Positions 10,640 to 34,882 of a stretch of 34,882 nucleotides of DNA are shown piece after piece. Position numbers and translations under genes: made by a program. The notes beneath the pieces are model-generated. The model saw only the letters and a program-made list of their open reading frames with translations. It was not told the origin of the DNA and searched no databases. Position 1 is the stretch's first letter; every line of letters starts with the position of its first letter. This stretch comes from Candidatus Uhrbacteria bacterium (lineage in GTDB: Bacteria; Patescibacteriota; Patescibacteriia; 2-12-FULL-60-25): positions 1 to 34,882 of the forward strand of contig JACQMO010000010.1 of NCBI GenBank assembly GCA_016203535.1. Direction: 5' to 3'.

Positions 10640-10721
10640 AAGAACGGGTGACAGGGCGAGCGTCTTCTCGTCTCGACAGCAGTCGGGACGAAAGGCGCGA
10701 GCCCTGGCAGGACCCGTTCTT
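10640..10721. terminator. ACGGGT-family structured element, copy A (rplL terminator)
   Basis: A 10-bp outer stem (10640-10649 with 10712-10721) encloses the conserved internal loop GAC / GGCAGG, then an AGGGC/GCCCT helix, a tandem GA/GA mismatch, a 7-bp helix and a capped hairpin. It begins 6 nt after the rplL stop. On the minus strand the stem is followed by TTCTTTTTTATT, a good intrinsic terminator. It also lies 21 nt after the plus-strand gene, so it may serve both converging genes. Confidence 0.8.
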
Positions 10722-10726
10722 CCTTG

Positions 10727-11131
10727 TTATTTGAGCGTCGCTTTCCCGCCGGCCTCTTCGATCTTCTTCTTCATCTCTTCGGCTTCGGCTTTCGCGACGT
10801 CTTCCTTCACGACTTTCGGCGCGGCATCCACGATATCCTTGGCTTCCTTGAGTCCAAGGCCCGTGATCTCGCGGACGACCTTGATCACGCCGATCTTGTT
10901 GCCCCCTGCTTCCGTGAGCTCCACGGTGAAGGAGGACTTTTCTTCCGCGGCGGCGCCACCCGCAGCGCCACCGGCGGCGGCCATCATGACCGGGGCGGCG
11001 GCGGACACGCCGAACTTCTCTTCAAGGACCTTCACGAGTTCCGCGAGGTCCAGCACGGACAATTTTTCGACCGAGGACACTAGATCTTTGAACTTCTCCG
11101 GCACCTCGACCACCTTCGTTTCATCGCTCAT
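10727..11131 (-). CDS. rplL: 50S ribosomal protein L7/L12
   Basis: L7/L12 forms the flexible stalk that recruits translation GTPases to the ribosome, as dimers bound to the C-terminal helix of L10. The 134-aa sequence has the N-terminal dimerisation domain (to about 45, ending [13 protein letters not shown]), an Ala/Gly-rich hinge (about 45-65) and the conserved C-domain ([19 protein letters not shown], then [16 protein letters not shown]). It lies downstream of rplJ, the universal order, but the two are separated by a structured element (copy B). No Shine-Dalgarno precedes ATG at 11131; the AT-rich stretch just upstream might hold a secondary promoter. Copy A terminates the transcript. Confidence 0.98.
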
Positions 11132-11154
11132 ATACGGTATATTATTTTCGTAAT

Positions 11155-11231
11155 TAACGGGTGACGCGGCGAACGTCTTGAGTCATGCGAGCCAGCATGA
11201 CGAAAGACGCGAGCTGTGGCAGGACCCGTTA
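11155..11231. repeat. ACGGGT-family structured element, copy B (rplJ-rplL spacer)
   Basis: An 8-bp outer stem TAACGGGT (11155-11162) / ACCCGTTA (11224-11231) contains the same GAC / GGCAGG loop as copy A and the same CGTCTT helix, while the apical stem differs in sequence but still pairs (GTCATGC/GCATGAC). The last three bases of the 3' arm are the rplJ stop codon. No U-tract follows on the minus strand, so it would be an attenuator or processing site rather than a full terminator. Confidence 0.75.
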
Positions 11232-11726
11232 CACCACAGCGTTTTCTTTCTGTTTTCGGATCGCTTCTACTGCACGGACGAATGCGGAGACCGGGGCGTA
11301 CATGGTGCCGACCACCTGGCCGAGAAGCTCCTTCTTCGACGGCAGCTTGGACAGCGCGACGACCTTCTCCTGCCCGACCGGCGCGCCTTCGAAAATCCCG
11401 CCGACCAGCTGGAGCGGCGTCGTCTTCGCCATGTCTCCAAGGACTTTGGCCGGCGCGATCTCGTCTTCCAGACCGAACGCGACGCCGATCATCCCCGGCA
11501 GGGCCTTGGCGTCAATCTCGACGCCCGCGTCTTTCGCGGCCTTCGACAGAAGCGTTTTCTTCGTGACCACGTAGTCGACGTTCGCTTCGCGCATCTTCTT
11601 GCGCAACTCGTCGGCTTTCGCCACCTTCAGTCCCTGATAGTTGGCGAACACGACGGATTTCGCCTTCTTGAACTCCCGCGTGAGGAGCTCGATCGTATTC
11701 AATTTCTGTTCACGTGTTTTTGGCAT
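11229..11726 (-). CDS. rplJ: 50S ribosomal protein L10
   Basis: L10 anchors the L7/L12 dimers to 23S rRNA and autoregulates its own operon by binding the leader. The 165-aa protein has the rRNA-binding N-domain (KTREQKLNTIELLTREFKKA, VVFANYQGL, VVTKKTLLSKAA) and the C-terminal helix (about 135-165, VVGTMYAPVSAFVRAVEAIR) that carries L7/L12. The start at MPKTREQK fits the family. No Shine-Dalgarno is visible before it. An L10 leader and a good promoter lie upstream, and copy B of the structured element begins at its stop codon. Confidence 0.98.
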   Translation of the reverse strand: MPKTREQKLNTIELLTREFKKAKSVVFANYQGLKVAKADELRKKMREANVDYVVTKKTLLSKAAKDAGVEIDAKALPGMIGVAFGLEDEIAPAKVLGDMAKTTPLQLVGGIFEGAPVGQEKVVALSKLPSKKELLGQVVGTMYAPVSAFVRAVEAIRKQKENAVV

Positions 11727-11766
11727 AGCAACGAGGTTAATTGGCTATTTCGACCTTTATAACAAC

Positions 11767-11810
11767 ACCCTCAGGTCAGTGAGGGCGTAAAGAAAACCGA
11801 ACGGTTTTCT
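11767..11810 (-). terminator. Two hairpins in the rplJ leader, possible attenuator
   Basis: Reading on the minus strand, AGAAAACCG-TT-CGGTTTTCT (11810-11791) is followed by CCCTCA/TGAGGG (11785-11768) and then TGTTGTT. Either could be the termination arm of the L10 leader. The U-run is weak, so the mechanism is uncertain. Confidence 0.45.
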
Positions 11811-11815
11811 CTGTG

Positions 11816-11866
11816 CTCCTCGGCAGGATATTAAGCCCCTTTGGCGGAGCGCCTGCTGTCTTTGGA
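11816..11866 (-). ncRNA. Ribosomal protein L10 leader
   Basis: On the minus strand the transcript carries AGACAGCAGG, then a loop with a short GC hairpin, then TTAATATCCTGCCGAGG. The pairing of CAGCAGG with CCTGCCG and the flanking AGACAG and GAGG words are the hallmark of the L10 leader, where the L10(L12)4 complex binds to repress its own operon. It lies about 90 nt upstream of the rplJ start, downstream of a matching promoter. Confidence 0.85.
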
Positions 11867-11882
11867 CCAGGATGTTGACGGC

Positions 11883-11911
11883 AGACTACCGGATGCGTTG
11901 TCCCCCGTCAA
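11883..11911 (-). promoter_or_regulatory. Promoter of rplJ-rplL
   Basis: TTGACG (11906-11911) and TAGTCT (11883-11888) are separated by 17 nt on the minus strand. Transcription would start near 11876, giving a leader of about 150 nt that includes the L10-binding site. Confidence 0.65.
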
Positions 11912-11927
11912 GGGATGGAGATATACT
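11898..11927 (+). promoter_or_regulatory. Promoter of the cupredoxin lipoprotein gene
   Basis: TTGTCC (11898-11903) and TATACT (11922-11927) with an 18-nt spacer. Its -35 region overlaps the rplJ promoter on the other strand, so the two divergent promoters may compete. Confidence 0.5.
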
Positions 11928-11953
11928 GGATTCCTAAACCTAATGTCTCTCCT

Positions 11954-12760
11954 ATGAACAACACGTTTTCCCTCCTGGCGCTTCTGGCGATTGTCGGAGC
12001 CGGATGCCCGCTCGCCCCGCCGCCGTCCGTCCCTCCGAGACCGCCGACAACCACGCCGCCCGTGGCCCCTCCGTCCGCCGAGGGTGATACCGCGGCCGTG
12101 GCGCTCGAAGGCAAAAATGCGATCGCGCTCGATGAAGACCAGAAGGTCGGCGACAAGATCACCGTTTCAAGCGTCATGCTGGAAAAGCCGGGATACGTCG
12201 TCGTCCACGGTGAGACGAACGGAGGGCCCGGCGCCATCCTTGCGAACAGCGTTCTCCTGCCAGCCGGCGAATCCGTGAACGTCGAGGTGAAAACCGTGGT
12301 GAAGCCGAACATCTATTACTGGGCGATGCTCCATGCGGACAACGGCGACGGCGCGTACAATTCGGCCGATGACGCGCCGATCAAGGACGGACAAGGCAAC
12401 ATCGTCATGATGCGTTTCGAAGGGGCCGAAGCCGCCGAGGTGATGGAAAAGAAAGAGGATGAAACAACCGAGGTCAAGGTTGACGTCGAGGTGAAGATGG
12501 AAGCCAAGACCGTTGCGGCGGCGATCCAGAACTTTTCCTTCGGACCTGCGACCATCACGGTGAAAAAAGGCGACAAGGTGACGTTCACGAACAAGGATGG
12601 CGTGGGCCACTCCGCAACGGCTGACGGCGGCGCGTTCGATACGGGGATCATCTCATCGAACCAATCCGCAACCGTGGACACGTCCTCGCTCGCGCCGGGG
12701 AGCTACCCGTTCCATTGCACCCCGCATCCGAACATGAAGGGGACGATCGTCGTACAGTAG
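11954..12760 (+). CDS. Cupredoxin (plastocyanin-like) lipoprotein with DUF7282-like domain
   Basis: A 268-aa exported lipoprotein: signal peptide with lipobox VGAGC (Cys18), then a Pro/Thr-rich linker. Residues about 60-165 resemble the DUF7282 domain of archaeal and CPR surface proteins (GYVVVHGETNGGPGAILANS). A cupredoxin domain follows (about 180-268) with the blue-copper ligands in the right order: His219 in GVGHSAT, and Cys255, His258, Met261 in HCTPHPNM. It should bind one copper at the cell surface and carry electrons or store copper; no partner oxidase is visible nearby. I chose ATG at 11954 rather than 11915 because it gives a clean signal peptide. Confidence 0.88.
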   Translation: MNNTFSLLALLAIVGAGCPLAPPPSVPPRPPTTTPPVAPPSAEGDTAAVALEGKNAIALDEDQKVGDKITVSSVMLEKPGYVVVHGETNGGPGAILANSVLLPAGESVNVEVKTVVKPNIYYWAMLHADNGDGAYNSADDAPIKDGQGNIVMMRFEGAEAAEVMEKKEDETTEVKVDVEVKMEAKTVAAAIQNFSFGPATITVKKGDKVTFTNKDGVGHSATADGGAFDTGIISSNQSATVDTSSLAPGSYPFHCTPHPNMKGTIVVQ

Positions 12761-12768
12761 AAAACTGT

Positions 12769-12860
12769 AAACGCCTGCGGTGCATGCCGGATGAACAGTA
12801 AGACTTGGCCTAGCGGCCCGGAGCGCTGTTCAGGAGGTATGTGCCGCAGGCGTTTTTTTT
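12769..12860. terminator. Bidirectional terminator with a large structured loop
   Basis: A 17-bp stem (12769-12785 with 12839-12855, two G-U pairs on the plus strand) is followed by eight T residues that overlap the xseB stop. The loop is itself structured: GAACAG/CTGTTC (12793-12798, 12826-12831) and GGCC/GGCC inside. It lies between the converging cupredoxin gene and xseB. The ~53-nt folded loop is much larger than in an ordinary terminator. Confidence 0.75.
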
Positions 12861-13071
12861 ATTCTTCGTGGATTCTCTTCTTGATTTCCTTAATCGTGTT
12901 CTCCGCCTCGTCCAAGCGATTCTTCAGCGTCTCGGCGAGGGTCATCGCGCGCTCGAACTTCGCAAGCCCCTGGTCGAGGTCGCCGTTCCCCTGCTCAAAC
13001 CACGCGGCGATCTCCTCGAGTTCTTGAAACCCTTTCGCGACGTCTACTTTTTTGGTGTCTTTCTTCGGCAT
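12859..13071 (-). CDS. xseB: Exodeoxyribonuclease VII small subunit
   Basis: XseB is the small helical subunit that coats XseA in exonuclease VII, which degrades single-stranded DNA from both ends. The 70-aa sequence is normal for the family: VDVAKGFQELEEIAAWFEQG, then GLAKFERAMTLAETLKNRLDEAE, a helical hairpin. Its start overlaps the end of xseA by 28 nt, so the two subunits are likely coupled in translation. It is the last gene of the long minus-strand run that begins at 18085. Confidence 0.92.
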   Translation of the reverse strand: MPKKDTKKVDVAKGFQELEEIAAWFEQGNGDLDQGLAKFERAMTLAETLKNRLDEAENTIKEIKKRIHEE

Positions 13072-14165
13072 AGAATGGTTGAATCAGCTTCCCCGTCACG
13101 CACGACGATCGTAACCTGCCGGCCTGGCACGAATTCCGAAATGGTCCCGATGCCATGCCCCCGATCATCCCGGATCATCGCATAGCCGCGGGACAGGACG
13201 GCGTGAGGGTTGAATGATGCCATGAGACGCATCTGGGCTTCAAGGCGCTCGCGAAGCGCGCGTAGCCACAACGTCGGCGAAACGAATACCCGTTCCAAAA
13301 TACTCCGTCCGTCATCGAGCTGTCGGCGCAGCGCTTGTTCGATCCCGCCGGAAACCGTCGACAGCTCATAGAGGATGTCGCGGCGGTCCGGCACGAGGCG
13401 CCGCGCGCAATCCGTCGGCGTCGAGCCGCGGACGTCGGCGGCTTCTTCGGCAAGCGTCAGATCCCGCTCATGTCCGATCGCGACGAGCGTCGGAATGCGC
13501 GACGCGTGGATTGCGTGCACGACCCGTTCATCGTTGAACGCCATGAGCTCCTCAAGCGAACCGCCGCCGCGCGTAAGCACCAACACGTCGTACGCGTCTC
13601 CTCCGGCATTCGCCTGTTCGATGGCGCGGACGATGTCGTCGGGCGCGCGCTCTCCCTGCACAAGGACATGGGAAAGATCGATCTGAAGTCCGCCCCACCG
13701 TTCACCCAGCACGCGGATGAAATCCCCGTATGCCGCGCTCTCCCGCGATGCGACGAGTGCGATCCGTTCCGGAAACCGCGGGAGCGGCCGTTTGCGTGAT
13801 GGATCGAACAGCCCCTCCTGTTCCAGCCGCGCGCGCAACAGAGCGAGCGCTTTCTTGAGCGCGCCTTCCCCGGCAAGTTCGATCCGCTCGGCGGAAAGCG
13901 AAAACTTCCCGTATTTCGGATACACGCGCGGAACGCCGAACACCCGAACACGGAATCCATCCTCGATGGGGACGCGCAAATTCCAGACCGGCAGGAACAC
14001 ATTCACGAGCGCTTTGTCGTCCTTCAAATCGAAACTCACCCACTGCCCCTGCGAAACGCGATAGCCGGACACTTCACCCTCGACCGCGACCGACTCGCCG
14101 GTGAACGCCTCCTTCAGGAGGAGGTTTACGGTTTCGACGAATTCTGACACGAGGAGGATGCGCAT
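13044..14165 (-). CDS. xseA: Exodeoxyribonuclease VII large subunit, short form
   Basis: The catalytic subunit of exonuclease VII. The N-terminal OB-fold (about 1-95, VEGEVSGYRVSQGQWVSFDL) precedes the nuclease domain with FPERIALVASRESAAYGDF, LTRGGGSLEELMAFNDE, AIGHERDLTLAEEAADVRGSTPT, then the C-terminal signature LSRGYAMIRDD. At 373 aa it is shorter than the ~400-450 aa of most bacteria; the missing part is in the coiled coil between nuclease domain and C-terminus, where the XseB subunits dock. Conserved catalytic-region motifs remain, so it is probably active. It starts 7 nt after the CapA-like gene ends and overlaps xseB. Confidence 0.93.
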   Translation of the reverse strand: MRILLVSEFVETVNLLLKEAFTGESVAVEGEVSGYRVSQGQWVSFDLKDDKALVNVFLPVWNLRVPIEDGFRVRVFGVPRVYPKYGKFSLSAERIELAGEGALKKALALLRARLEQEGLFDPSRKRPLPRFPERIALVASRESAAYGDFIRVLGERWGGLQIDLSHVLVQGERAPDDIVRAIEQANAGGDAYDVLVLTRGGGSLEELMAFNDERVVHAIHASRIPTLVAIGHERDLTLAEEAADVRGSTPTDCARRLVPDRRDILYELSTVSGGIEQALRRQLDDGRSILERVFVSPTLWLRALRERLEAQMRLMASFNPHAVLSRGYAMIRDDRGHGIGTISEFVPGRQVTIVVRDGEADSTILCRRKTPKK

Positions 14166-14172
14166 GGGAGAG

Positions 14173-15249
14173 TCAGTTGACTGGAAGAATGATTTTTCCG
14201 TTCAGGATCTGATTTGTGAGCGATGGATCGGAAAGCGAAGACAACCTGCGCAGACGCGCGTCCCGTGATGCGCCCTCGAGGAGGCGTGGCTGGCTTTGGT
14301 CGATCCGGACCGGCAACAAATCGATCGCGACGTCGCGGTCCGAAAACGTGAGGAGCGCCGCGAGCCCTTCCCGCGTTTCTTCCGACCAATCCTGGTCGAA
14401 CACGAAATTCCCAAGCGAGTAGAGGATCGGCTTCCCGCGATACAGGCCGACCCCCTGCGTCCAATGCGGGTGGGCGCCGATGACCGCGTCCGCCCCATGG
14501 TCGATGAGCCACATCGCGCGTTTCTGCTGATCCGGCGTCGGCCGGTCGCGGTATTCTTCGCCCCAATGCATGAACGCGAGGACCAGATCGGCGGCGCGCG
14601 CCGCGTCCATGGCCTTCATCGCTCCTGTTTCATCAAACGCGCCCGTCACCGTGTTGAACCCCACGAGCGCGACGGAGCGGCCGTTCAAGCGCATGATGGC
14701 GAGGGACACGGCGCCCTCTTCGACCTCATCGCCGAACGCGACGATCCCGGACTGGCGGAGACGGTCGCGCGATTCCGCCGCGCCGATCCGTCCCTGGTCC
14801 CACGCGTGGTTGTTCGCCTGGGACGCGGCATCGAATCCAGCCGCACGGAGCGACGAAACGGATTCCGGAGCAAATGCGAAGTCGATCGACTTTTCCGGCG
14901 CGCGCCGGACGGCGGTAACCGGCCCTTCGAGGTTCATGAGACGCGCATGCGCGGACCGGAACAAAGGCTCCTCCATGATGCGGCGGAACGGATACAGGGC
15001 GTCGTTCGCCTTGCGGATCCGCGTCGCGACGGTGCGATCGAGCATCACGTCGCCGACGACGAACACCGTCACCGGTGCGTTCCGCGGGGGAGAAACCGGA
15101 AACGAATTCGTCGCCGCGCCCGGGCCGTCCGATACCGACGCGCCGGCGGACGCAAGGATGCGGAATGCCGCGACGATCCCGACGCCGGAGATCACGACCG
15201 ACAACACCGGGACAGCGACGAGCGCGGCTAGGGCGCGACGGTAAACCAT
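14173..15249 (-). CDS. CapA/PgsA-like metallophosphoesterase, membrane anchored
   Basis: A 358-aa protein of the PGA_cap family, whose members are calcineurin-fold proteins found with poly-gamma-glutamate capsule systems but also widely in bacteria that make no such polymer. A membrane anchor lies at about 10-33, then a linker, then the domain: VVGDVMLDRTVATRI (about 62-76), MNLEGPVTAV, ASQANNHAWDQG, GAHPHWTQG and YSLGNFVFDQ, which carry the metal-binding Asp, Asn and His residues. No capB/capC ligase genes are present, so capsule synthesis is not implied. ATG at 15249 overlaps the preceding gene by 22 nt and gives a proper anchor; the longer upstream frame is an overlap artefact. Confidence 0.87.
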   Translation of the reverse strand: MVYRRALAALVAVPVLSVVISGVGIVAAFRILASAGASVSDGPGAATNSFPVSPPRNAPVTVFVVGDVMLDRTVATRIRKANDALYPFRRIMEEPLFRSAHARLMNLEGPVTAVRRAPEKSIDFAFAPESVSSLRAAGFDAASQANNHAWDQGRIGAAESRDRLRQSGIVAFGDEVEEGAVSLAIMRLNGRSVALVGFNTVTGAFDETGAMKAMDAARAADLVLAFMHWGEEYRDRPTPDQQKRAMWLIDHGADAVIGAHPHWTQGVGLYRGKPILYSLGNFVFDQDWSEETREGLAALLTFSDRDVAIDLLPVRIDQSQPRLLEGASRDARLRRLSSLSDPSLTNQILNGKIILPVN

Positions 15250-15674
15250 ACGCGGATGAGCCACCAAAACAGGACGGCCCACAACACGTTTGAGAGAACG
15301 AGGTCCACGGGAAACCACGCATCCTCCTTGGTGCCGAACAGGCCGTGGCCTTCGAGCGGAAGCAGGATGCCGCCGGAAACGAGCGTGAGCACGAGCGACC
15401 ATCCGAGCAGCGGAAGCAGGTGGAATCCGGACACGAGACCAAGGACGACAAGGACGCCGTATCCGATCCCCGCGAGCGCGGAGATGAACAGATGGCTGAA
15501 CACCCCGAGGAGATATGCCTCTCGACGGCTGACGGGCTTGCCGAACACGCGCGGCCGCTCGAGATCGCGGATAAAATTTCCGGCGCCGAGATACGGCGCG
15601 ATGTAGGAAAAGAACAGCAAGATCGCCCCGGCGGAAACGCCGGCGCCGGCGGCGGGAAAAAGAAGATTCGTCAT
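15228..15674 (-). CDS. Small integral membrane protein, unknown
   Basis: A 148-aa protein with about four membrane segments (about 5-28, 54-82, 84-105 and 122-146) and a short basic loop (FIRDLERPRVFGKPVSRREA) after the first. I do not recognise a family. It overlaps the C39 peptidase gene by 4 nt (ATGA) and the CapA-like gene by 22 nt, so it is co-translated with both and probably works in the envelope. No charged catalytic motif is visible within the membrane segments. Confidence 0.75.
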   Translation of the reverse strand: MTNLLFPAAGAGVSAGAILLFFSYIAPYLGAGNFIRDLERPRVFGKPVSRREAYLLGVFSHLFISALAGIGYGVLVVLGLVSGFHLLPLLGWSLVLTLVSGGILLPLEGHGLFGTKEDAWFPVDLVLSNVLWAVLFWWLIRVWFTVAP

Positions 15675-16528
15675 GGGATCACGACGATCATGACGCGCGC
15701 GCCCGTCTTGACGGTGGCTTTCGATCCCGTCCAGTCATGCGTCGCATTCAGGATCGTGTCGAAGGTATAGGTATATCCCCTGCCTTTACGTGTGCCGGGA
15801 TCGTTTGTGATGAAGTGCGTCGGGGTATATCCGCGGATGACGAGCATGTGATAGTCCGGTCCGCCGTTCCGGAAATTCGGGTTGCCGAGAAGCTTCCCGG
15901 CTGCCGGGATGATCACCGGATACCCGTTCGCGATCACCCGTTTGATGTCGTCGGCGGTCGCAAACGGCTTCACCAACACGTTCCGGTATCCGAAATATTC
16001 CCGAAGCATGCGCGCCGTTTCTTCAGCCGTCGTGTCTTCGTAATACCCGAACGTCTCTTCCTCCCATGCCACGAGCTTCGTGATGTCATCATCCGCGCGG
16101 TCCGGAGGAATGACGCCGGTTTTTCCGTCGTAAAACGCGTCCACCATGAGGGACGACGCTTCCTCGCACGCTTCCTGATAGGGAAGATCCCAATTCGCGT
16201 GCGGCGCCTGCGACGTGAATGGCACGTCCAGATTCAGTTCCGTCGGGAGTGTGCCGGCGAACGCCAACGGATCCGTTTCCTTTTGCTTCGCGACCGGATT
16301 GGTTTCGAGGACGTAATTCTCGGATGCGGAAACGCCGCCCTCGACCGGCGACGGCGCGGAAGGGACGACCGCTTCGCCGGGTGCGATCGAAGGAACGTAG
16401 GCGCGCGCCGGCGGGAGCTTGGGTGCGTTCAAGGCATCCACGGCGTCGCGGATCGCGCCGCGGCTGGCGTATCCAAACAATGCCACGCTCACAATCGCAG
16501 CCGTAAGAAGAACCTGCATCCGTTTCAT
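15671..16528 (-). CDS. Exported C39-family (papain-like) peptidase
   Basis: A 285-aa exported cysteine peptidase. An N-terminal signal anchor (about 5-22) and a linker precede the domain, which starts LNLDVPFTSQAPHANWDLPYQ. The oxyanion Gln118 and catalytic Cys121 lie in PYQEACEEAS, His227 in GGPDYHMLVIRGY, and the third residue is probably Asp243 in TNDPGT. C39-like domains outside bacteriocin exporters are common as free secreted proteins and may cut peptides or proteins at the cell surface; the substrate is unknown. It follows the cyclophilin gene by 22 nt and overlaps the next gene by 4 nt. Confidence 0.88.
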   Translation of the reverse strand: MKRMQVLLTAAIVSVALFGYASRGAIRDAVDALNAPKLPPARAYVPSIAPGEAVVPSAPSPVEGGVSASENYVLETNPVAKQKETDPLAFAGTLPTELNLDVPFTSQAPHANWDLPYQEACEEASSLMVDAFYDGKTGVIPPDRADDDITKLVAWEEETFGYYEDTTAEETARMLREYFGYRNVLVKPFATADDIKRVIANGYPVIIPAAGKLLGNPNFRNGGPDYHMLVIRGYTPTHFITNDPGTRKGRGYTYTFDTILNATHDWTGSKATVKTGARVMIVVIP

Positions 16529-16550
16529 GCGGATCAGCGTACCGTATTTT

Positions 16551-17225
16551 TTATTGTTTGTCTTCTATCGTCACGGTGGTCATGACGTCTCCGACGCGGA
16601 GGTTCGTGACCACGTCCTGTCCGGAAATCACGCGCCCAAAAATCGAGTAGTTCGGATCAAGCGGGTAATCCTCCTTCATGATGAAGAATTGCGAGCCGTT
16701 CGTGTCCGGACCGGCATTCGCCATCGCGACGATCCCCTGTGTGTACGGGAGCTTCACCGGATCGTCCGCGAACTGGTAGCCGGGACCGCCGCGTCCGGTG
16801 CCTGTCGGGTCGCCACCCTGCGCCATGAACCCTTCGATAACGCGATGGAACGTCAGGCCGTCGTAATATTTCCGCTTCGCCAGATAGATGAAGTTGGACG
16901 CAGCGTTCGGGCCTTCCTCCGGAAGCATCTCGAACATGATGTCGCCTTTGGAAGTTTTGAGACGGGCGACTTTATTTGCGGTTTCCGCTTTCGGCAGGAC
17001 GCCAGGGAATGCGAGAGGTTCGTTTGTCATAGCAGTGGTGGTTGATGCTTGAGGTTCAGTTGAAGTGACCGTTTCCGGAGCGGGAGGAGCCGGCGGCGGG
17101 GTTGCGGGGGGCGTCGCCACGGGAATAACCGTGTCGAGTTTTTCAGGAGCCGGCGGCGTCGACGCGCACCCCGCACCGAACACGGCGAGAACAAAAAAAG
17201 ATGGAAGAAGGATCCGTGTCGTCAT
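16551..17225 (-). CDS. Cyclophilin-type peptidyl-prolyl isomerase, lipoprotein
   Basis: A 224-aa surface lipoprotein catalysing cis-trans isomerisation of proline bonds in exported proteins. The signal peptide ends in the lipobox FGAGC (Cys20); a Pro/Ala/Thr linker (to about 80) follows and then the cyclophilin domain with GLTFHRVIEGFMAQGGDPTG, GIVAMANAGPDTNGSQFFI and NYSIFGRV. The catalytic Arg (FHRV) and Phe/Gln (SQFFI) are present. I chose ATG at 17225, which has GAGAG 5 nt upstream; the ATG at 17237 coincides with the previous gene's stop and lies in repeat-flanking DNA. Its partners in the operon are also exported proteins. Confidence 0.92.
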   Translation of the reverse strand: MTTRILLPSFFVLAVFGAGCASTPPAPEKLDTVIPVATPPATPPPAPPAPETVTSTEPQASTTTAMTNEPLAFPGVLPKAETANKVARLKTSKGDIMFEMLPEEGPNAASNFIYLAKRKYYDGLTFHRVIEGFMAQGGDPTGTGRGGPGYQFADDPVKLPYTQGIVAMANAGPDTNGSQFFIMKEDYPLDPNYSIFGRVISGQDVVTNLRVGDVMTTVTIEDKQ

Positions 17226-17236
17226 ATTCACTCTCA

Positions 17237-18085: not shown

Positions 18086-18096
18086 AATCGAATGCC

Positions 18097-18123: not shown

Positions 18124-18158
18124 CGCAACGGGTGACACGGAACGGGGGACCCGTTGCG
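18124..18158 (-). terminator. ACGGGT-family element, short copy E (metK terminator)
   Basis: A 10-bp stem CGCAACGGGT (18124-18133) / ACCCGTTGCG (18149-18158) starts 3 nt after the metK stop; on the minus strand it is followed by TTTTTGTTT. The plus-strand sequence ACGGGTGACACGGAACGGGG is nearly identical to the 5' part of copies C and D, so this looks like a shortened form of the same element working as an intrinsic terminator. Confidence 0.85.
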
Positions 18159-18161
18159 CAC

Positions 18162-19148
18162 CTACTCTTCCCACGGCATCCCCGCCTCCCCGGAAAACCC
18201 CCACATCGCCGCGTCGAAATTCAGTCCGGGTCGGAGCCATTCTTTCATTCGTTCGAGATGAAGGTCATCCGCGCCAAGGAGTGACGCGCAATCGCGGCCG
18301 CGTTCATCCTTAGCCCGAACCTGCGCGGGCCGCATTTCGCCCGGCAAATACGACGCTTGAACGAGCGCCGCGCGAGCGCCGTGTTTTACAAGTTTCCGCG
18401 CCGCGGCGCGCGCGAGCCACGTGCCGGCTTTTTCGGCGGAAAACGGATCACGGCCGGCGATGGATGGCATATGCGGGACGAGCGAGCCGTACGGTGAGAT
18501 TGTGGCATCGGAAGATCCCGTGGCCGCCGCGAGACCGCGGCGTTCGCATACACCCGTCGGATTGATGTCGAGCTTCGCGCCTCCGACGAACGGATCGAGT
18601 TCCGAGACTGTCCGACGTCGGACGTCGGACAATGGTTCATTTCCATGTTCAATGCGGATGATCACATATGGCGGACGTCCGACGTCCGCCATGACCGTAA
18701 TTTCGGCGTCCGGACCCAGCCAGAACCAGTCCGGGTCTCGCAGACGCTTGTCGTTTAGCCGTTTTGCGATCTGTCGCGCGAGCGCGGCCGTGGCCGGAAG
18801 CTGTTCCGGCGTCTCGTTCGTGGCATACCCCGTCACCGTGACCGGTGCGTCGCACGCAAGCCGCGCGGACGCAACCCGTTCGGGAGTCACCGGCTCTAGG
18901 GAGATGAACGGCTCCAGCTCATCCGCGACGCCGAGCGACCCTGCGGCGCGCTTCACGCATGCAGATACGTCAAAATCCGCGCTTGAGAGCACGTCGCCTG
19001 CAACGAATAATAATCCCCGACCGCCGGTCACGGTGAGCCGAATGCGAGAAGCAGGATCGCGGCGCAGGTATTCATCCACGAGCGCTTCGGCTATGAGCTC
19101 GCAGGCGTGGTCCGGCTGTCCCGGCAGGCGGCATGTCGCGGTTCTCAT
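18162..19148 (-). CDS. metK: Divergent S-adenosylmethionine synthetase (MetK-like)
   Basis: A 328-aa protein related to bacterial MetK, which joins ATP and methionine to make S-adenosylmethionine. Recognisable landmarks: LTVTGGRGLLFVAGDV (about 38-53), GYATNETPEQLP (about 114-125), NPTG near 200, and a GRDPFSAEKAGTWLARAAAR segment equivalent to GKDPTKVDRSAAYAARY. But key motifs are changed: the usual GHPDK is GQPDH (10-14), losing the catalytic His and Lys, and HGGGAFSGKDP is HMPSIAGRDP (about 225-235). It is also about 50 residues short. It may be a drifted but working enzyme or an inactive paralogue. It is expressed from its own promoter and ends at terminator E. Confidence 0.75.
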   Translation of the reverse strand: MRTATCRLPGQPDHACELIAEALVDEYLRRDPASRIRLTVTGGRGLLFVAGDVLSSADFDVSACVKRAAGSLGVADELEPFISLEPVTPERVASARLACDAPVTVTGYATNETPEQLPATAALARQIAKRLNDKRLRDPDWFWLGPDAEITVMADVGRPPYVIIRIEHGNEPLSDVRRRTVSELDPFVGGAKLDINPTGVCERRGLAAATGSSDATISPYGSLVPHMPSIAGRDPFSAEKAGTWLARAAARKLVKHGARAALVQASYLPGEMRPAQVRAKDERGRDCASLLGADDLHLERMKEWLRPGLNFDAAMWGFSGEAGMPWEE

Positions 19149-21360: not shown

Positions 21361-21445
21361 CACGGGTCCTGCCGCGGCCCACCCCCACGGTACTCGATCT
21401 GCTGATCTGCGTGCCGTGGGGGTCCCCCGTTCCGCGTCACCCGTG
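21361..21445. repeat. ACGGGT-family structured element, copy C
   Basis: An outer stem CACGGGT (21361-21367) / ACCCGTG (21439-21445), the conserved CCTGCC / GTC internal loop (complement of GGCAGG / GAC), a GCGG/CCGC helix and a strong 9-bp inner stem CCCCCACGG/CCGTGGGGG. It is inverted relative to copies A, B, D and E. Bases 21375-21454 are the exact reverse complement of 34803-34882. Confidence 0.85.
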
Positions 21446-27891: not shown

Positions 27892-27922
27892 GGGCAACTC
27901 GCACCTTCGTTCTCAACCGACC

Positions 27923-28192: not shown

Positions 28193-28259
28193 AGGTTTGT
28201 GGCGGCAGGGCCTGCCGCATTCGCTTTGAGTTACCGGAATAGGATATCATTGATTGACT

Positions 28260-28607: not shown

Positions 28608-28980
28608 TCCGTTCGGCGACCGCCGCGAGTTCTTCCGGCATCGCGTCCCGCGCGTTCGATTGCGCCAAGTCGCCCGGAGCCGAAATCGGCACGAGCTTGA
28701 TGTGCGCGTGCGGAACTTCCAGTCCCTCGATCACGAGCGCGACTTTCGCGCTACCCATCGCCCGGCGGATCGGTTCGATGAGATTCTTCGCGGCCGCGAG
28801 ATACGAACAGAATTCATCCTCCGGAAGATCGAACGGCGAATCGATCTCGCGTTTCGTCACGAGGAGCGTGTGTCCGGGTTGGATCGGACGGATGTCGAGG
28901 AACGCGAAAGACCAGTCGTCTTCCCAGACCTTGTGGCACGGAATCTCACCGGCGATGATTTTCGAAAAAATGGTTGGCAT
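28579..28980 (-). CDS. HIT-family nucleotide hydrolase/transferase
   Basis: A 133-aa HIT protein. The start MPTIFSKIIAGEIPCHKVWEDD, FLDIRPIQPGHTLLVTKRE and the C-terminal PHAHIKLVP are characteristic. The histidine triad is H-A-H-I-K: the central His, the nucleophile that is transiently bound to AMP, is kept, but the third His is Lys. Many bacterial members hydrolyse adenosine 5'-phosphoramidate or dinucleoside polyphosphates. It is divergent from the secreted protease gene, 26 nt away, and overlaps the dehydratase gene tail to tail. Confidence 0.9.
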   Translation of the reverse strand: MPTIFSKIIAGEIPCHKVWEDDWSFAFLDIRPIQPGHTLLVTKREIDSPFDLPEDEFCSYLAAAKNLIEPIRRAMGSAKVALVIEGLEVPHAHIKLVPISAPGDLAQSNARDAMPEELAAVAERIRKEIQTTG

Positions 28981-29006
28981 ATTTGAGGCATGATAACATA
29001 GGTTAA

Positions 29007-30152
29007 ATGAAAAAAATCGTTTTGAACGGGCTTTCCCTCATCGCGCTATCGGGCTTTTTTTTGAATCCGGCGGCGGCCCTGGCGGCCGAACGTCCCTTCC
29101 CCGTCCATCAGGCCGTCGCGCAAGTCCGCTGCGGGAACCGGCAGGGGTCGGGCGTCGTGGTGAATGCGGAAAAAGGATATGTGCTCACGAATGCGCACAT
29201 TCTTCTCAACCTGAACACGCTCATCCCCGACGCGTGCGACGTGGGGTTCATGAATGATCTGACCCTGAAGCCCACGATCTTTTACGAGGCGAAATTCGAC
29301 CGGTACGTGTTCGATGAAGAGCACAACAAGGACTTTGCCGTCCTGAAAATCGGCAAGGCGAAGCAGGCGCAAAAACTGCCGTCATTCCCGTTCTTGAAAA
29401 CGGACGAATTTTCGGCGGTCGGCGATCCGCTTGCGATCCTCGCGTTCCCTTCGAGCAACAAAGGCACGCAGCTCGCGACCGAAGGAACGATCAAGGGGCT
29501 CGAAAGCGGCATCGTAAAGACGGACGCGGTGATTTCCCCCGGGGCTTCCGGCGGCGCGGGACTCGACGCCGCGAACAACCTCATCGGCATCGCGACGCGG
29601 ATCCTCCTCCGGCAGGTGGACGGCGTGGAGGAGGTCGTGGATTACGAACTCGTGGACATCCGCGCGATCCTGACCTGGCTCGATACGTTCGGCGAGAACG
29701 TCCATGACCTGTACACCACGCACGCGGATTTCGACCGCTACCACGTGCCGACGGCGTTTTTCCAGGCGGGGAATCTGAGCTGTGTCCTGCTCGCGAAGAT
29801 CGCGGACACAAGCACGGTCTATTGTCTGCACGCCGACGGCACGCGGTCCGTGTTTCCGAACGACGCGACGTACCATTCCTGGTTCGGCGATTTTTCCGGC
29901 GTCCTGACCGTTCCGGTGGAACAACTCGCGGCCTACCGGCTGGTCTCGAACGTCACGATGAAGCCGGGAACGCTCGTCAAGATTCAGACGGATCCGAAAG
30001 TGTATCTCGTCTCGGACGTCCTCGGGACGCTCCGGTGGATTGAAAATGAGGATCGCGCGAAGGAACTCTACGGCGAGGGATGGGCCGGCTTCGTCAAAGA
30101 TGTCCCGGACACGTTTTTCATCAATTATCGCCTCGGAAGTCCGGTCCAGTAA
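29007..30152 (+). CDS. Secreted trypsin-like serine protease with CPR-type C-terminal domain
   Basis: A 381-aa exported protein: signal peptide (1-27, cleavage after ALA), a chymotrypsin-fold protease (about 33-225) and a C-terminal domain (about 255-381). The catalytic triad is His64 (TNAHIL), Asp109 (KDFAVLKI) and Ser181 (PGASGGAG). The C-terminal part contains VYCLHADGTRSVFPN, SWFGDFSGV, NVTMKPGTLVKIQTDPKVY, LRWIENEDRAKELYGEGW and FFINYRLG, a domain that I recall in many exported CPR proteins of otherwise different type, with no assigned function; it may be a surface-attachment or sorting module. Start ATG at 29007 has a weak AGG 4 nt upstream. The stop lies 3 nt from the converging pyrD. 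Confidence 0.88.
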   Translation: MKKIVLNGLSLIALSGFFLNPAAALAAERPFPVHQAVAQVRCGNRQGSGVVVNAEKGYVLTNAHILLNLNTLIPDACDVGFMNDLTLKPTIFYEAKFDRYVFDEEHNKDFAVLKIGKAKQAQKLPSFPFLKTDEFSAVGDPLAILAFPSSNKGTQLATEGTIKGLESGIVKTDAVISPGASGGAGLDAANNLIGIATRILLRQVDGVEEVVDYELVDIRAILTWLDTFGENVHDLYTTHADFDRYHVPTAFFQAGNLSCVLLAKIADTSTVYCLHADGTRSVFPNDATYHSWFGDFSGVLTVPVEQLAAYRLVSNVTMKPGTLVKIQTDPKVYLVSDVLGTLRWIENEDRAKELYGEGWAGFVKDVPDTFFINYRLGSPVQ

Positions 30153-30155
30153 CGT

Positions 30156-31292
30156 CTACGGCAGGGGGGAGTCGATCGGTTCGTTCGCATATTTGGATCC
30201 GATCGCCTGTGAGATGTGAGAAAAACCGTCTCGACGGAGAAGGGCCGTCACCCCCCGATTGATCTCTCCGATGAGTTGCGGCCCCTCAAAAATCATCCCG
30301 GTGATCAATTGAACCAACGACGCGCCTCGGATGATTTTCTCATAGGCGTCCTCCGCGGAAAAAATGCCTCCGCATCCGATGATGAGATAGCGTTTCCCGG
30401 CGCGGCGATAGATGTGGGAAATTATTTCATTCGAGGGCTCGCGGACGGGAACGCCGCTGATCCCGCCATGATCTTTCCCTTGGATTTCCGACGGTGCGAG
30501 ATGCGGGTTGTTCCTGTCCTTGACTAAATTCGATGGAATCCACCCGTGGATACGATGGCGCCCGGCAATATCGAGCAACGCATCCATGTGTTCAACGGTG
30601 ATCTCCGCCGGGAGTTTAATGAACACCGGCTTCTGTGTCTGAACCTCGTCCAACGCGGCCATGAGCGCATCAAAACGCATTGGATCGGTGAACGGTTCTC
30701 CTCCGTAGGCATTCGGACAGCTGATATTCACGGTCAAATAGTCGCCGATATCCGCGAGTGTTCGAGCCGCCTTCACGTAATCAGCGATCCCCGCCTCCAG
30801 GGAGAGAGTGTGGGGGCTGTTCGTTTTCGCGATGCTTGTGCCGATTGGAAAAATGAATTTTTTTCCTTGCAAACGTTTCGCGGCCGCGATGCAGCCGTCA
30901 TTCATCAGGCCGTAGTATACCAAGAGCGCCTTGGATTGCGGAAGGCGCCACACGCGCGGTTTGGGGTTTCCAGGGCACGGTTCGCCGGTCACAGAGCCGA
31001 TCTCTTCAAAACCAAACCCCACGGACGGCAGGATGTTCACCAACTGCGCGTTCTTATCGAATCCCGCCGCAAGTCCCACGGGATTCCGGAACCGAATGCC
31101 GAGAATCTCCTGCTCAAGCGCGGGATGCCGATACGCAAACATCGCCGACGTCAATGCTCTGGCGGTCGGATGGCGGCCGAGAAAAACACCGACCCTGACC
31201 ATGCGTTCATGCACCTCCTCCGGATCATGGCGGAAGAGTATCGGCTTCACGACGGTGCGGTATCCCGAGCGAAGAAATCGGGTTGCGTGCAT
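30156..31292 (-). CDS. pyrD: Dihydroorotate dehydrogenase, class 2-like
   Basis: A 378-aa flavoenzyme oxidising dihydroorotate to orotate in pyrimidine synthesis. The N-terminal helix region typical of membrane-associated class 2 enzymes is present (FRHDPEEVHERMVRVGVFLG), then NPVGLAAGFDKN, FEEIGSVTGEPCPGNPKPRV, GGISGVPVREPSNEII and IGCGGIFSAEDAYEKI as FMN-binding motifs. At the catalytic base it reads NISCPN with Cys192, whereas class 2 enzymes normally have Ser (NISSPN) and class 1 enzymes have Cys. No other pyr gene is nearby. ATG at 31292 gives the best length; the longer frame runs through the tRNA genes and is spurious. Confidence 0.92.
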   Translation of the reverse strand: MHATRFLRSGYRTVVKPILFRHDPEEVHERMVRVGVFLGRHPTARALTSAMFAYRHPALEQEILGIRFRNPVGLAAGFDKNAQLVNILPSVGFGFEEIGSVTGEPCPGNPKPRVWRLPQSKALLVYYGLMNDGCIAAAKRLQGKKFIFPIGTSIAKTNSPHTLSLEAGIADYVKAARTLADIGDYLTVNISCPNAYGGEPFTDPMRFDALMAALDEVQTQKPVFIKLPAEITVEHMDALLDIAGRHRIHGWIPSNLVKDRNNPHLAPSEIQGKDHGGISGVPVREPSNEIISHIYRRAGKRYLIIGCGGIFSAEDAYEKIIRGASLVQLITGMIFEGPQLIGEINRGVTALLRRDGFSHISQAIGSKYANEPIDSPLP

Positions 31293-31347
31293 AGGACTGA
31301 TCGATCGTTCAGCGAAAGGGTAGCACAAACAAAAGGGAATCTCACTG

Positions 31348-31394
31348 CCCGCCAGCAACAAACCCCGCTCAAGGCGGGGCTTATTGCTGGCGGG
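31348..31394 (-). terminator. Nested hairpin at the 3' end of tRNA-Asp
   Basis: An inner stem CCCCGC/GCGGGG (31363-31368, 31374-31379) followed on the minus strand by TTTGTT is a terminator for the tRNA transcript. It sits inside an outer perfect 11-bp stem, 31348-31358 with 31384-31394, whose 5' arm on the minus strand is the tRNA 3' end including CCA. Confidence 0.7.
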
Positions 31395-31465
31395 TGCGAA
31401 GGGATTCGAACCCTCGATCTTCTCCGTGACAGGGAGACGTGTTAACCGGGCTACACCACGCACCC
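31388..31465 (-). tRNA. tRNA-Asp (GTC)
   Basis: A full cloverleaf: acceptor GGGTGCG/CGCACCC, D stem GTGT/ACAC, anticodon stem TCTCC/GGAGA around the 7-nt loop CTGTCAC (anticodon GTC), T arm GAGGG-TTCGAAT-CCCTT. The discriminator is G73, the Asp identity base, and the 3' CCA is encoded (31388-31390). It lies downstream of the tRNA-like copy. Confidence 0.95.
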
Positions 31466-31491
31466 AGGCGTGAGTTCTTCTTTTCTCGTTG

Positions 31492-31567
31492 AGCGTGCGA
31501 AGGGATTCGAACCCTCGATCTCCCCGATGGCCATCGGGGCGTGTTAACCGGGCTACACCACGCACCC
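31492..31567 (-). tRNA. tRNA-like copy of tRNA-Asp with palindromic 8-nt-loop anticodon arm
   Basis: Identical to the neighbouring tRNA-Asp in the 5' acceptor strand, D arm, variable loop and T arm, but the anticodon arm is replaced by an 18-nt palindrome: stem CCCCG/CGGGG with the 8-nt loop ATGGCCAT. After U33 the next bases are GGCC, so the anticodon could be GGC (Ala), GCC (Gly) or a four-base GGCC. The 3' acceptor strand has one mismatch (CGCACGC), the discriminator is T, and no CCA is encoded. It may be a pseudogene or a non-canonical tRNA. Confidence 0.7.
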
Positions 31568-31586
31568 AAACTTCAAACGTGGCAGG

Positions 31587-31615
31587 AGGTTATCACGCTT
31601 TTTTTTGAACCGCAA
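31587..31615 (-). promoter_or_regulatory. Promoter of the tRNA pair
   Basis: TTGCGG (31610-31615) and TAACCT (31587-31592) with a 17-nt spacer on the minus strand; the start site would be about 13 nt before the first tRNA base. Confidence 0.5.
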
Positions 31616-31625
31616 GCATCCGAGG

Positions 31626-31653
31626 TTTACAGGAAAACTCGCCGTGTTACTGT
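31626..31653 (+). promoter_or_regulatory. Promoter of the EVE gene, short leader
   Basis: TTTACA (31626-31631) and TACTGT (31648-31653) with a 16-nt spacer; the start site would be about 10 nt before ATG at 31670. Confidence 0.45.
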
Positions 31654-31669
31654 ATCTTCAAGAATATCT

Positions 31670-32083
31670 ATGGCCTATTGGCTGCTCAAAACCGAGCCGG
31701 AAGTCTATTCGTGGGAACGGCTTGAACAGGACAAAAAGACGATGTGGGAAGGCGTCCGCAATTACCAGGCGCGGAACGCTTTGAAAGAGATGGCCGAGGG
31801 CGATCTCGTGTTTATCTATCACAGCGGCGAAGAAAAAATGATCATGGGCGTGGCGCGAGTCACGAAAGCCGCATACCCGGATCCCACGAGTTCAGAGGCA
31901 AAATGGCTCGTCGTGGATATCGAAGCCGTGAAGCCGCTCATGCGTCCGGTGAGTCTCGAAGAAATAAAAAACACGTATCTCCTGAACGTCATGCCGCTCG
32001 CGACGCAATCGCGTCTGTCCGTTCAGCCGGTGACCGAGCCGCAGTGGAATTTGATTTTAAAAATCGCGAAGACGGAGGTTTAA
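31670..32083 (+). CDS. EVE domain protein (YTH/PUA-like modified-base reader)
   Basis: A 137-aa single-domain protein. The opening MAYWLLKTEPEVYSWERLEQD and the following MWEGVRNYQARNAL, GDLVFIYHSG and IMGVARVTKAAYPD are the standard EVE motifs. EVE domains belong to the PUA/ASCH/YTH group and bind modified bases in DNA or RNA; in bacteria they are often found with restriction-like systems, but stand-alone copies such as this are also widespread. The start at 31670 is the family start. The gene converges on pyk and overlaps its last 4 nt. Confidence 0.93.
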   Translation: MAYWLLKTEPEVYSWERLEQDKKTMWEGVRNYQARNALKEMAEGDLVFIYHSGEEKMIMGVARVTKAAYPDPTSSEAKWLVVDIEAVKPLMRPVSLEEIKNTYLLNVMPLATQSRLSVQPVTEPQWNLILKIAKTEV

Positions 32084-33492
32084 ATTTTCACAATCTCAAT
32101 CTTGTTCGCCGTGCCGGGTTTGCCGGAGGGGGAGCCGGTCACGATGACTACGCGTTGGCCGTGTTTCAGCTTGCGTTCTTTTTTGAGATGTTCGATCGCC
32201 GCTTTCGCCATGAGTTCGGGCGTCTTTTTGCGTGGGAGGAGACGCGGTTCCACGCCCCATGCAAGACGCAGAAGGCGCTGCACGTGGGGGTCGAACGTCC
32301 AGGCAAAAATCGGCGCTTCGGGCCGGAATGAACTGACTTCTTGCGCCGTGCGTCCCGTTGCCGTGGCGATGACGACGGGCGCACCGCCGAGCGCTTCGAC
32401 GATCACGCGCACGGTCGCGCCGATCACTTCCGGCACGTCGCGCGGCGCGGTGAGATCCACCGCCTGAAGATCGTCGAATCGCGACGCCTCGGTGGCGGCG
32501 ATGGTGTCTGACATGATCTTCACCGCCTCGACCGGATGCGCGCCGGTCGCGCTCTCTCCGGAAAGCATCACGGCATCGGCGTGATCGATCACCGCATTCG
32601 CGACATCGGAAACTTCCGCGCGCGTGGGGCGCGGGTTTTTGATCATGGAATCCAGCATCTGCGTCGCAACGATCACGGGGACGGCGTGTTCGCGGCATGC
32701 CGCAATGATCTGTTTCTGGACGACCGGGACGCTCGCGGCTGGCGTTTCGATTCCCAAATCCCCTCGCGCGACCATCACGACGTCCACGAGCGGTAAAATT
32801 TCTGCGAACCGGTCCACCGCTTCCTGTTTTTCGATCTTGACGGCGATGCGGATCCGTTTCCCGGCCGGGCCGCGCCGATCCAGAAGCTGACGCAAGTCCT
32901 TCACGTCCTGCGGCGAACGGACGAAGGAGAGCGCGACGAAATCCACGCCGAGCGTCGTGCCGAACACGGCGTCGGCACGATCCTTCTCCGACAGCGCGGG
33001 CATCCGGAGCTTCGTGCCCGGCAGATTAAACCCTTTATGGGAGGTGAGCGTTCCTCCCTGGACCACCTCCGTGAAGATCCGGCGGCCTTCGACGCGTTCG
33101 ATTGTTACTTCCAACAATCCGTCATCCAAGAGAATCCGCTCCCCTTTCTTCACGTCCTGATGAAGCGTCTGGAGCGTGACGGGAATGTCGCCGGACAAGA
33201 GGTCGGATCCCGTGGCGAATACCGCGCGCTTTCCGGCGACCAGTTTCACGCCCTCTTTCGGAAGATCCCCGACGCGAATTTTCGGGCCTTGCAGATCCTG
33301 GAGGATCCCGAACGGTTGCCCCAGGCGTTTGCCGGCCAGGGCCAAATTTTTCACGATGCGCGCATGGTCTTCATGGGTCCCGTGCGAAAAGTTGAGCCGC
33401 GCCACGTCCATGCCCGCGCGTCCCAGCCGATAGAGGGTCGACGGATCACGGGAAACGGGGCCGATGGTGCAGACGATTTTCGTGCGTTTCAT
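32080..33492 (-). CDS. pyk: Pyruvate kinase
   Basis: A 470-aa enzyme for the last step of glycolysis, phosphoenolpyruvate + ADP to pyruvate + ATP. KRTKIVCTIGPVSRDP, MDVARLNFSHG, GILQDLQGPKIRVG, the catalytic Lys region VKIEKQEAVDRFAEI, the metal-binding VMVARGDLGIE and the signature PTRAEVSDVANAVIDHADAVMLSGE are all present. The C-terminal effector domain is complete (VIATATGRTAQEVSSFRP to VTGSPSGKPGTANKIEI). The gene starts 10 nt after htrA ends, so it is probably on the htrA transcript. No Shine-Dalgarno is visible. Confidence 0.98.
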   Translation of the reverse strand: MKRTKIVCTIGPVSRDPSTLYRLGRAGMDVARLNFSHGTHEDHARIVKNLALAGKRLGQPFGILQDLQGPKIRVGDLPKEGVKLVAGKRAVFATGSDLLSGDIPVTLQTLHQDVKKGERILLDDGLLEVTIERVEGRRIFTEVVQGGTLTSHKGFNLPGTKLRMPALSEKDRADAVFGTTLGVDFVALSFVRSPQDVKDLRQLLDRRGPAGKRIRIAVKIEKQEAVDRFAEILPLVDVVMVARGDLGIETPAASVPVVQKQIIAACREHAVPVIVATQMLDSMIKNPRPTRAEVSDVANAVIDHADAVMLSGESATGAHPVEAVKIMSDTIAATEASRFDDLQAVDLTAPRDVPEVIGATVRVIVEALGGAPVVIATATGRTAQEVSSFRPEAPIFAWTFDPHVQRLLRLAWGVEPRLLPRKKTPELMAKAAIEHLKKERKLKHGQRVVIVTGSPSGKPGTANKIEIVKI

Positions 33493-33502
33493 AGATCAGG
33501 AA

Positions 33503-34726
33503 CTATTTTTGAGGTTTAAATTCATCCAGCGTGACGCGCACATCTTTTTCCTCGCCGCGGCGGAGGATCCGAAGCGCCACTGTGTCGCCAGGAATATGCC
33601 GGCTGATCAACGAACTCAAACTGTGCTCATCGTTGATCGGCGTCCCGTCGAGCGACAAAATGATGTCATTCTCGGAAATCCCCTCCTTGTCCGCCGGAGA
33701 ACCCGGGATCACCGCGAGGTCGGACGGCTCCGCGCCGCGAGAAATGAGCACGCCGTGATCCACGGGCAGATTGTTTTTCTTCACGAGGTCGTCCGTGATG
33801 ATGAGATACCGGATGCCGAGAAAGGGCCGCGCGATACGTCCGAGCTTCTGGACCTGCTCGACGTCGCGCTTTACGAGGTTGGACGGAAGGGCGAATCCGA
33901 GGAGTTGGCCGGCGAAGGACACCGCGGTGTTCACGCCGACGACGCGGCCCTGCAAGTCGATGAGCGGCCCGCCGGAATTCCCGCGGTTGATTGCGGCGTC
34001 GGTCTGGATGGCTTCTTCGATAAGCTCCCCGTCGAAATCGTTCTCGGCGATGATGCGTCGGTTGAGTCCGGACACGATTCCCTTCGTGACGGTGTTGCGG
34101 AATTCGTCCAACGCGTTGCCGATCGCGACCACGGTCTGTCCGGTTTTCAAAGCGTCGGAATCCGCGAAGGTCAGATACGGATAGTTGTCCCCTTCGATAT
34201 CGAGGATTGCGAGGTCAAGAACCGGGTCGCGCGCGAGCACGGTTGCCGAAAGCGATGTCCCGTTCCGGAGGAGCACTTCGTATTGGGCGTTCGGATCTTC
34301 CACGACATGGCGATTGGTCACGATGAGGCCTCCGGCGGACACTAAAAAACCGGAACCGCCTCCGATTTTCTGCCGTCCTTCCGGCGCGGGCTCGGATTCG
34401 CCCAACGGAAATTCCTCCCCGAAAAACGGATTGACGGAGCGGCGCGAGGGAAGCTTCGACGCGTCAATCGTGGCGGCAATGGAAACGACCGCCGGGAGCA
34501 CCCGATCGAGGACGGCGATCAACTGGTCGTCCTCTGCCGTGGCAAAGCCATTCGCCGGCACCGGGGACGGAGGGGTGAGGACTGCGGATGTTCCGGACGT
34601 CGCGGACGGGACGAAAGATAACCGGAACGCGGGCGAAACGGCGCTTCCCAAGGCGCCGCCCAAAACTCCGGCGAGGAGTGAAACAAGAACGATCAAAGAA
34701 AGATGGGAACATTTGGACTTCATCAT
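33503..34726 (-). CDS. htrA: HtrA/DegP-type serine protease with PDZ domain
   Basis: A 407-aa envelope protease/chaperone that degrades or refolds damaged exported proteins. A signal anchor (about 9-31) and a linker precede the trypsin-like domain, with triad His140 (VTNRHVVED), Asp171 (DLAILDI) and Ser251 (NRGNSGGPL). One PDZ domain follows (about 305-400: FLGIRYLIITDD, AVIPGSPADKEGISENDIIL). I chose ATG at 34726 because an extended -10 box ends 14 nt upstream, so the more upstream ATGs at 34753 and 34783 would lie outside the mRNA. It leads into pyk. A second, different secreted serine protease is at 29007. Confidence 0.95.
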   Translation of the reverse strand: MMKSKCSHLSLIVLVSLLAGVLGGALGSAVSPAFRLSFVPSATSGTSAVLTPPSPVPANGFATAEDDQLIAVLDRVLPAVVSIAATIDASKLPSRRSVNPFFGEEFPLGESEPAPEGRQKIGGGSGFLVSAGGLIVTNRHVVEDPNAQYEVLLRNGTSLSATVLARDPVLDLAILDIEGDNYPYLTFADSDALKTGQTVVAIGNALDEFRNTVTKGIVSGLNRRIIAENDFDGELIEEAIQTDAAINRGNSGGPLIDLQGRVVGVNTAVSFAGQLLGFALPSNLVKRDVEQVQKLGRIARPFLGIRYLIITDDLVKKNNLPVDHGVLISRGAEPSDLAVIPGSPADKEGISENDIILSLDGTPINDEHSLSSLISRHIPGDTVALRILRRGEEKDVRVTLDEFKPQK

Positions 34727-34739
34727 AAAAAGCAACACA

Positions 34740-34748
34740 ACTATAGCA
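34740..34748 (-). promoter_or_regulatory. Extended -10 promoter of htrA, near leaderless
   Basis: TGCTATAGT on the minus strand is an extended -10 box; the start site would lie about 7 nt before ATG at 34726. The -35 region is weak. Confidence 0.5.
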
Positions 34749-34802
34749 TACATGCGGCGTCCCTTTTTTGCTTGCTTCCCCAACCATGAGGGAAGGTGGG
34801 AG

Positions 34803-34882
34803 ATGCGTCAGCACGGGTGACGCGGAACGGGGGACCCCCACGGCACGCAGATCAGCAGATCGAGTACCGTGGGGGTGGGCCG
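34803..34882. repeat. ACGGGT-family structured element, copy D (cut by window end)
   Basis: The first 80 bases of a further copy: GCACGGGT, the loop GAC, GCGG, the inner stem CCCCCACGG/CCGTGGGGG and part of the 3' side. It is the exact reverse complement of 21375-21454. The closing GGCAGGACCCGT side lies beyond the window. It is upstream of htrA. Confidence 0.85.

Follow-up and report, generated by a model that had tools for sequence, protein, structure and literature searches.

Integron attC sites fold as hairpins of a single DNA strand; their ends are conserved, their interior varies, and they have the R'' (RYYYAAC) and R' (GTTRRRY) boxes. Among structured RNAs, the skipping-rope RNA (RF02924) of bacteria has a variable stem. 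It also has a pseudoknot (PMC7779021). Short mobile repeats of bacterial DNA include MITEs and terminator-like repeats such as SPRITE (PMC10969869), and the Rickettsia palindromic elements (RPEs) enter unrelated genes in frame (PMC10969869). In-frame small palindromic elements have so far been described above all in Rickettsia.

The window described here, a stretch of 34,882 nucleotides from a Candidatus Uhrbacteria bacterium, contains five hairpins, A to E. These hairpins are most likely copies of a non-autonomous selfish palindromic DNA element that has been co-opted as a terminator at some sites (probability about 0.8). Together they represent a family of small, mobile, palindromic DNA elements that had not been catalogued before and is present in many small-genome bacteria. 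A search of open papers returned no earlier description of the family. Rfam gave nothing at gathering thresholds and nothing plausible at relaxed thresholds, where the skipping-rope RNA also had no match.

Copies in the window and their common frame

All five hairpins of the original prediction are present in the window (Table 1), as are the minus-strand U-tracts at copies A and E. Each copy has an outer GGGT/ACCC stem, an asymmetric loop, and a variable inner hairpin. The conserved frame can be written as GGGTGAC...GGCAGGACCC, and the core spans about 64-90 nt. The shared stem and loop are real, but the loop, earlier drawn as GAC against GGCAGG, is better described as GA against GCAGG with a C-G pair closing it. 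Copies A and B form class I, whereas C and D form class II. Copy C, which scores 110 bits with the covariance model, is identical to copy D over 80 nt (12 nt upstream and 68 nt downstream of the GGGT start). Because this identity continues to the contig end, the contig breaks inside a repeat, an example of how the element breaks genome assemblies. Copy E (GGGTGACACGGAACGGGGGACCC) is a deletion derivative of the C/D type, with its junction at a repeated GGACCC. Relative to dinucleotide shuffles, the folding z-scores are about -7.8 for A, about -7.0 for B, and -4 to -5.6 for C.

Table 1. Positions of the hairpin copies and neighboring features in the window.
Feature	Positions	Strand	Remarks
691-aa open frame	8543-10615	+	No Pfam match; ends shortly before copy A
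Copy A U-tract (minus-strand reading)	10630-10640	-	Terminator position of the rplJ-rplL transcript
Copy A, class I	10640-10721	+	Just past the rplL stop (10727, minus strand)
Copy A outer stem	10640-10649 / 10712-10721		AAGAACGGGT / ACCCGTTCTT
Copy A loop	10650-10651 / 10707-10711		GA / GCAGG
Copy A interior			Helix CAGGGC/GCCCTG, then inner hairpin with CGTCTT
Copy B, class I	11155-11231	+	Between rplJ and rplL
rplJ stop codon	11229-11231	-	Inside the outer stem of copy B
Copy E, class II	18124-18158	+	Internally deleted; outer stem retained
Copy E U-tract		-	After the divergent S-adenosylmethionine synthetase gene
Divergent S-adenosylmethionine synthetase	18165-19148	-	N-terminal and central domains barely above Pfam cut-offs, C-terminal domain below
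Copy C, class II	21361-21445	-	Intergenic, upstream of a UvrD-type helicase gene (minus strand)
Copy D, class II	34803-34882	+	Cut off by the contig end

The host genome (811 kb), a family-level relative of Candidatus Uhrbacteria UHB, carries about 24 copies in the two structural classes. The 12-mer GGCAGGACCCGT occurs exactly 15 times in this genome, against an estimated expectation of about 0.1, and 14 of the 15 occurrences are the 3' end of a complete hairpin. With covariance models, 11 copies of class I and 12 of class II are recovered, and several of these are absent from the seed alignments.

Both classes covary significantly. In the class I alignment, 90% of cells are paired and 16 pairs have double changes; in class II, the values are 93% and 8. 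None of 500 shuffles equals either alignment, and the class I pairing signal is lost when the partner column is slid. The loop is conserved among copies, and the family extends beyond the window genome. Thus, the three outcomes that the original prediction had named as fatal to it (no significant covariation, a freely varying loop, and no further copies in related genomes) did not materialize.

The conserved loop contains an A.G mismatch that swaps to G.A in concert; 130 of 132 distinct copies are concordant. GGGTGAC is combined with GGCAGG in 120 copies and GGGTGGC with GACAGG in 10, and two copies are mixed (Fisher p=4e-13, calculated on copies that are not fully independent). Both classes and several genomes contain the swapped form. 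Such non-canonical covariation points to selection of the strand with these letters as a folded strand, either RNA or single-stranded DNA. Strand-specific recognition is a plausible reading of the A.G/G.A pattern.

A folded RNA read in the plus direction had been proposed from an excess of G-U pairs on that strand. The excess is found in class I (15 G-U versus 2 A-C pairs), but the ratio is reversed in other genomes (3:13 in the Omnitrophota genome G408 and 3:11 in G415), and a general plus-strand bias is rejected outside class I. A folded single DNA strand is also expected to produce the same asymmetry, so the RNA reading is not established.

Distribution, insertion sites, and terminator positions

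When 84,980 species genomes were scanned with the pattern GGGTGACN{43,73}GGCAGGACCC, the matches listed included some chance matches and many true hairpins with unrelated interiors. The true hairpins among these matches are from Saccharibacteria, Omnitrophota, Uhrbacteria, and Daviesbacteria, as well as from Roizmanbacteria, Gottesmanbacteria, Deltaproteobacteria, and a few rumen Bacillota. A strict pattern matched 15 of 380 CPR genomes, whereas the reversed control pattern matched none. Single genomes carry up to 44 copies (Omnitrophota), with 19 in a Roizmanbacteria, 14 in a Deltaproteobacteria, and 11 in a Saccharibacteria genome. Among relatives of the window genome searched with the covariance models, convincing copies were found only in G005, G012, G015, and G007, and the same-genus relative G001 has none. 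Occurrence is therefore patchy within one genus and family. The element has probably been transferred between phyla. Phage carriage is not supported: IMG/VR viral contigs gave 42 matches, none of them a proper element, which is the chance level and doubles as a baseline.

Several features point to mobility. Cores are near-identical within a genome while their flanks are unrelated, and orthologous sites are occupied in some genomes and empty in others. In Saccharibacteria, copies lie in frame within genes for topoisomerase I and within the domains of IleRS, PBP transpeptidase, and amidase. The topoisomerase I gene contains two copies in G317, one at another place in G417, and none in G143. These inserts occupy three positions, keep the frame, and would be translated as flexible peptides such as GPAVASSPTHAGAGVPQATSPAD. 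Short remnants of the element are found at one topoisomerase I site in G409 and G417. The insert peptides are rich in Ala, Pro, and Ser, and core lengths are mostly 64, 70, or 76. Insertions inside genes occur in both orientations and in unrelated essential genes. The in-frame set was collected via open reading frames, which biases the absence of frame-breaking insertions; however, Pfam domains run on across the inserts and provide independent support for in-frame insertion. Gene context from simple ORFs is unreliable in GC-rich genomes and was used only with Pfam or homologue confirmation. No target-site duplication or precise empty site could be resolved, as the flanks of the available relatives are too diverged.

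The topoisomerase I genes of G191 (L353, ~958-1553) and G409 (L350, 624-3050) contain other in-frame inserts, for example RKSSSRGLPEVTTEDEGASPVTTG and FLKGVRSAAARGLAREPRGDG. These differ from the hairpin family, which suggests that Saccharibacteria may harbor several families of in-frame mobile repeats.

In nearly all relatives shown, rplL is followed by a plain terminator-like hairpin and a U-tract. The window genome (G000) and G012, which is of the same family, have the element exactly at this site with the A/U-tracts kept, and the G012 copy is of class I. Since the element replaces the rplL terminator and retains these tracts, copy A most likely terminates the rplJ-rplL transcript. Its presence in both genomes could reflect old vertical inheritance. 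Copy E is placed similarly. On the minus strand, A and E both combine a stable stem with a U-tract in the transcript, as expected of Rho-independent terminators, whereas the U-tract is missing from many other copies. Some intergenic copies probably act as transcription stop signals. Copy B is an insertion between rplJ and rplL, a gap that holds the element in no relative shown. In the same-genus relative G001 (L325), the open frame does not begin at the usual rplL start but extends further upstream, reading through a tandem repeat of GAGGCTCCGAAAGTTGAA.

The original prediction had also named, as one option, a mobile hairpin that came to serve as a terminator. This option is now well supported by dispersal, patchiness, occupied and empty sites, in-frame insertions, and the terminator positions of A and E.

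Palindromic flanks, mobilization, and alternative explanations

The palindrome extends beyond the core. The two arms of a copy pair with each other much better than arms exchanged between copies do; at the fourth position outward, pairing is 100% versus 35% in G415 and 100% versus 41% in G408. Arms at single sites reach 14-18 bp (e.g., L010 and L244), and those in Saccharibacteria are about 5 bp. They differ from copy to copy even within one genome, while the core is constant, and no terminal sequence is common to different genomes. Two routes could produce this pattern: entry into palindromes that already exist, such as terminators, or an insertion that duplicates the flank in inverted orientation. 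In samples of about 100 kb per genome from two genomes, no coreless palindromes were found. Some cores are embedded in longer inverted repeats that recur around several copies, which looks like one repeat family carried within another. These repeats are AGTTGAAAATGACGG... in the Deltaproteobacteria genome G412 (L275, L284, and L288) and CTGTCGAATAC...GGCCGC in G408 (L236, L237, and L254).

Two candidate enzymes were considered, and neither provided the mobilizing gene. The Y1 transposase (PF01797) is encoded in many carrier genomes outside the window's own family and is absent from the carriers G000, G012, G409, G317, G417, and G414. A core pair is near only 1 of 28 Y1 loci. Reverse transcriptase (PF00078) is missing from seven carriers, the window genome plus G005, G012, G015, G408, G412, and G417, so a retroelement that uses this enzyme is not supported. 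The RAYT (REP-associated tyrosine transposase) genes of G408 and G412 are each flanked by a palindromic repeat of their own, AAAAGTACCGGGTACTTTT in the former (L298, 1277-1330 and 2105-2158) and TACC...GGTACCTGGTACC in the latter (L306, 1142-1172 and 2011-2041).

How such an element could spread may be outlined as follows. The GGGTGAC...GGCAGGACCC frame folds into the outer stem and asymmetric purine loop, and the inner hairpin can diverge freely provided pairing persists. An enzyme acting in trans would recognize a folded single-stranded intermediate through the loop and would insert copies at sites that are palindromic beforehand or are made so. Copies would persist at sites where the damage is small, namely directly behind stop codons, at terminators, or in frame within genes. 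At a terminator, as with A and E, transcription would still stop because the hairpin is joined to a U-tract that is already there. A more specific version is tentative and rather doubtful. Here, the hairpins would represent a mobile class whose folded single strand is recognized by a conserved purine loop that is asymmetric and contains a covarying G.A pair, and a recombinase of unknown type would move it between phyla, inserting it into palindromes or creating them.

The strong covariation, including that of the non-canonical pair, might instead reflect a cis-regulatory or terminator RNA family under functional selection, whose conserved loop binds a host protein at mRNA 3' ends. Several intergenic Saccharibacteria copies located 6-40 nt after a same-strand stop codon are consistent with this explanation, as are the U-tracts at A and E. 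However, this reading is unlikely: occurrence is patchy within one genus and family, and copies are inserted in both orientations inside unrelated essential genes. Moreover, the transcript terminated at A and E corresponds to the strand opposite to the conserved one, and Rfam gave no match. The presence of very stable hairpins within essential genes would also fit an intron-like element cut from the message, or one that the ribosome bypasses during translation. Neither mechanism needs an open frame, yet frames stay open in the recognized genes (a set found via open frames), making this explanation very improbable.

Mobility of a conventional kind has also been weighed. If the family were a MITE, moved by the transposase of an insertion sequence whose terminal inverted repeats match its own, the palindromic arms would be those repeats, and the recurrence of some arms as long-inverted-repeat families in G412 and G408 agrees with this idea. 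It is nevertheless quite unlikely, given that arms vary by copy around a constant core, that Saccharibacteria arms are so short, and that genomes share no terminal sequence. Mobilization as REP elements by RAYTs would fit the Y1 genes in many carriers. This reading is highly improbable: six carriers lack Y1 altogether, and the RAYTs examined in detail are flanked by different repeats, with the single core pair near a Y1 locus as the exception. A non-autonomous selfish palindromic element thus remains the preferred interpretation.

Comparison with known systems

The proposed selfish palindromic element stands out by a frame that is invariant and strand-specific and that occurs in several phyla, including bacteria with reduced genomes. 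One invariant frame across phyla offers comparative power for finding the responsible enzyme. The element also presents selfish DNA as a source of new peptides and terminators in essential genes of CPR bacteria.

Like MITEs and SPRITE, the family consists of short non-autonomous mobile repeats, some of them terminator-like. In contrast to those repeats, its constant part is the center rather than the ends, and its palindromic arms differ between copies. REP/REPIN-RAYT systems share with it the dispersed extragenic hairpins, patchy occurrence, and many copies. However, several carriers lack a cognate RAYT flanked by the repeat, which excludes the family from this group, and the element is also found in frame inside genes. 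Integron attC sites are similar in combining conserved ends with a variable interior in a single-strand hairpin. Unlike attC sites, the element is scattered among core genes and not in cassette arrays, and its flanks, read directly, fit neither the R'' nor the R' box.

The closest behavior, likened by description and not by sequence, is that of the RPEs. Both are small dispersed palindromic repeats that are intergenic as well as in frame inside unrelated genes, where they encode peptides; in-frame palindromic inserts in protein genes are found here in Saccharibacteria topoisomerase I, IleRS, PBP, and amidase. The hosts differ, and RPEs are about 150 bp long, compared with a core of 64-90 nt. 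The family described here is further distinguished by a single conserved asymmetric-loop frame across phyla, combined with copy-specific palindromic arms.
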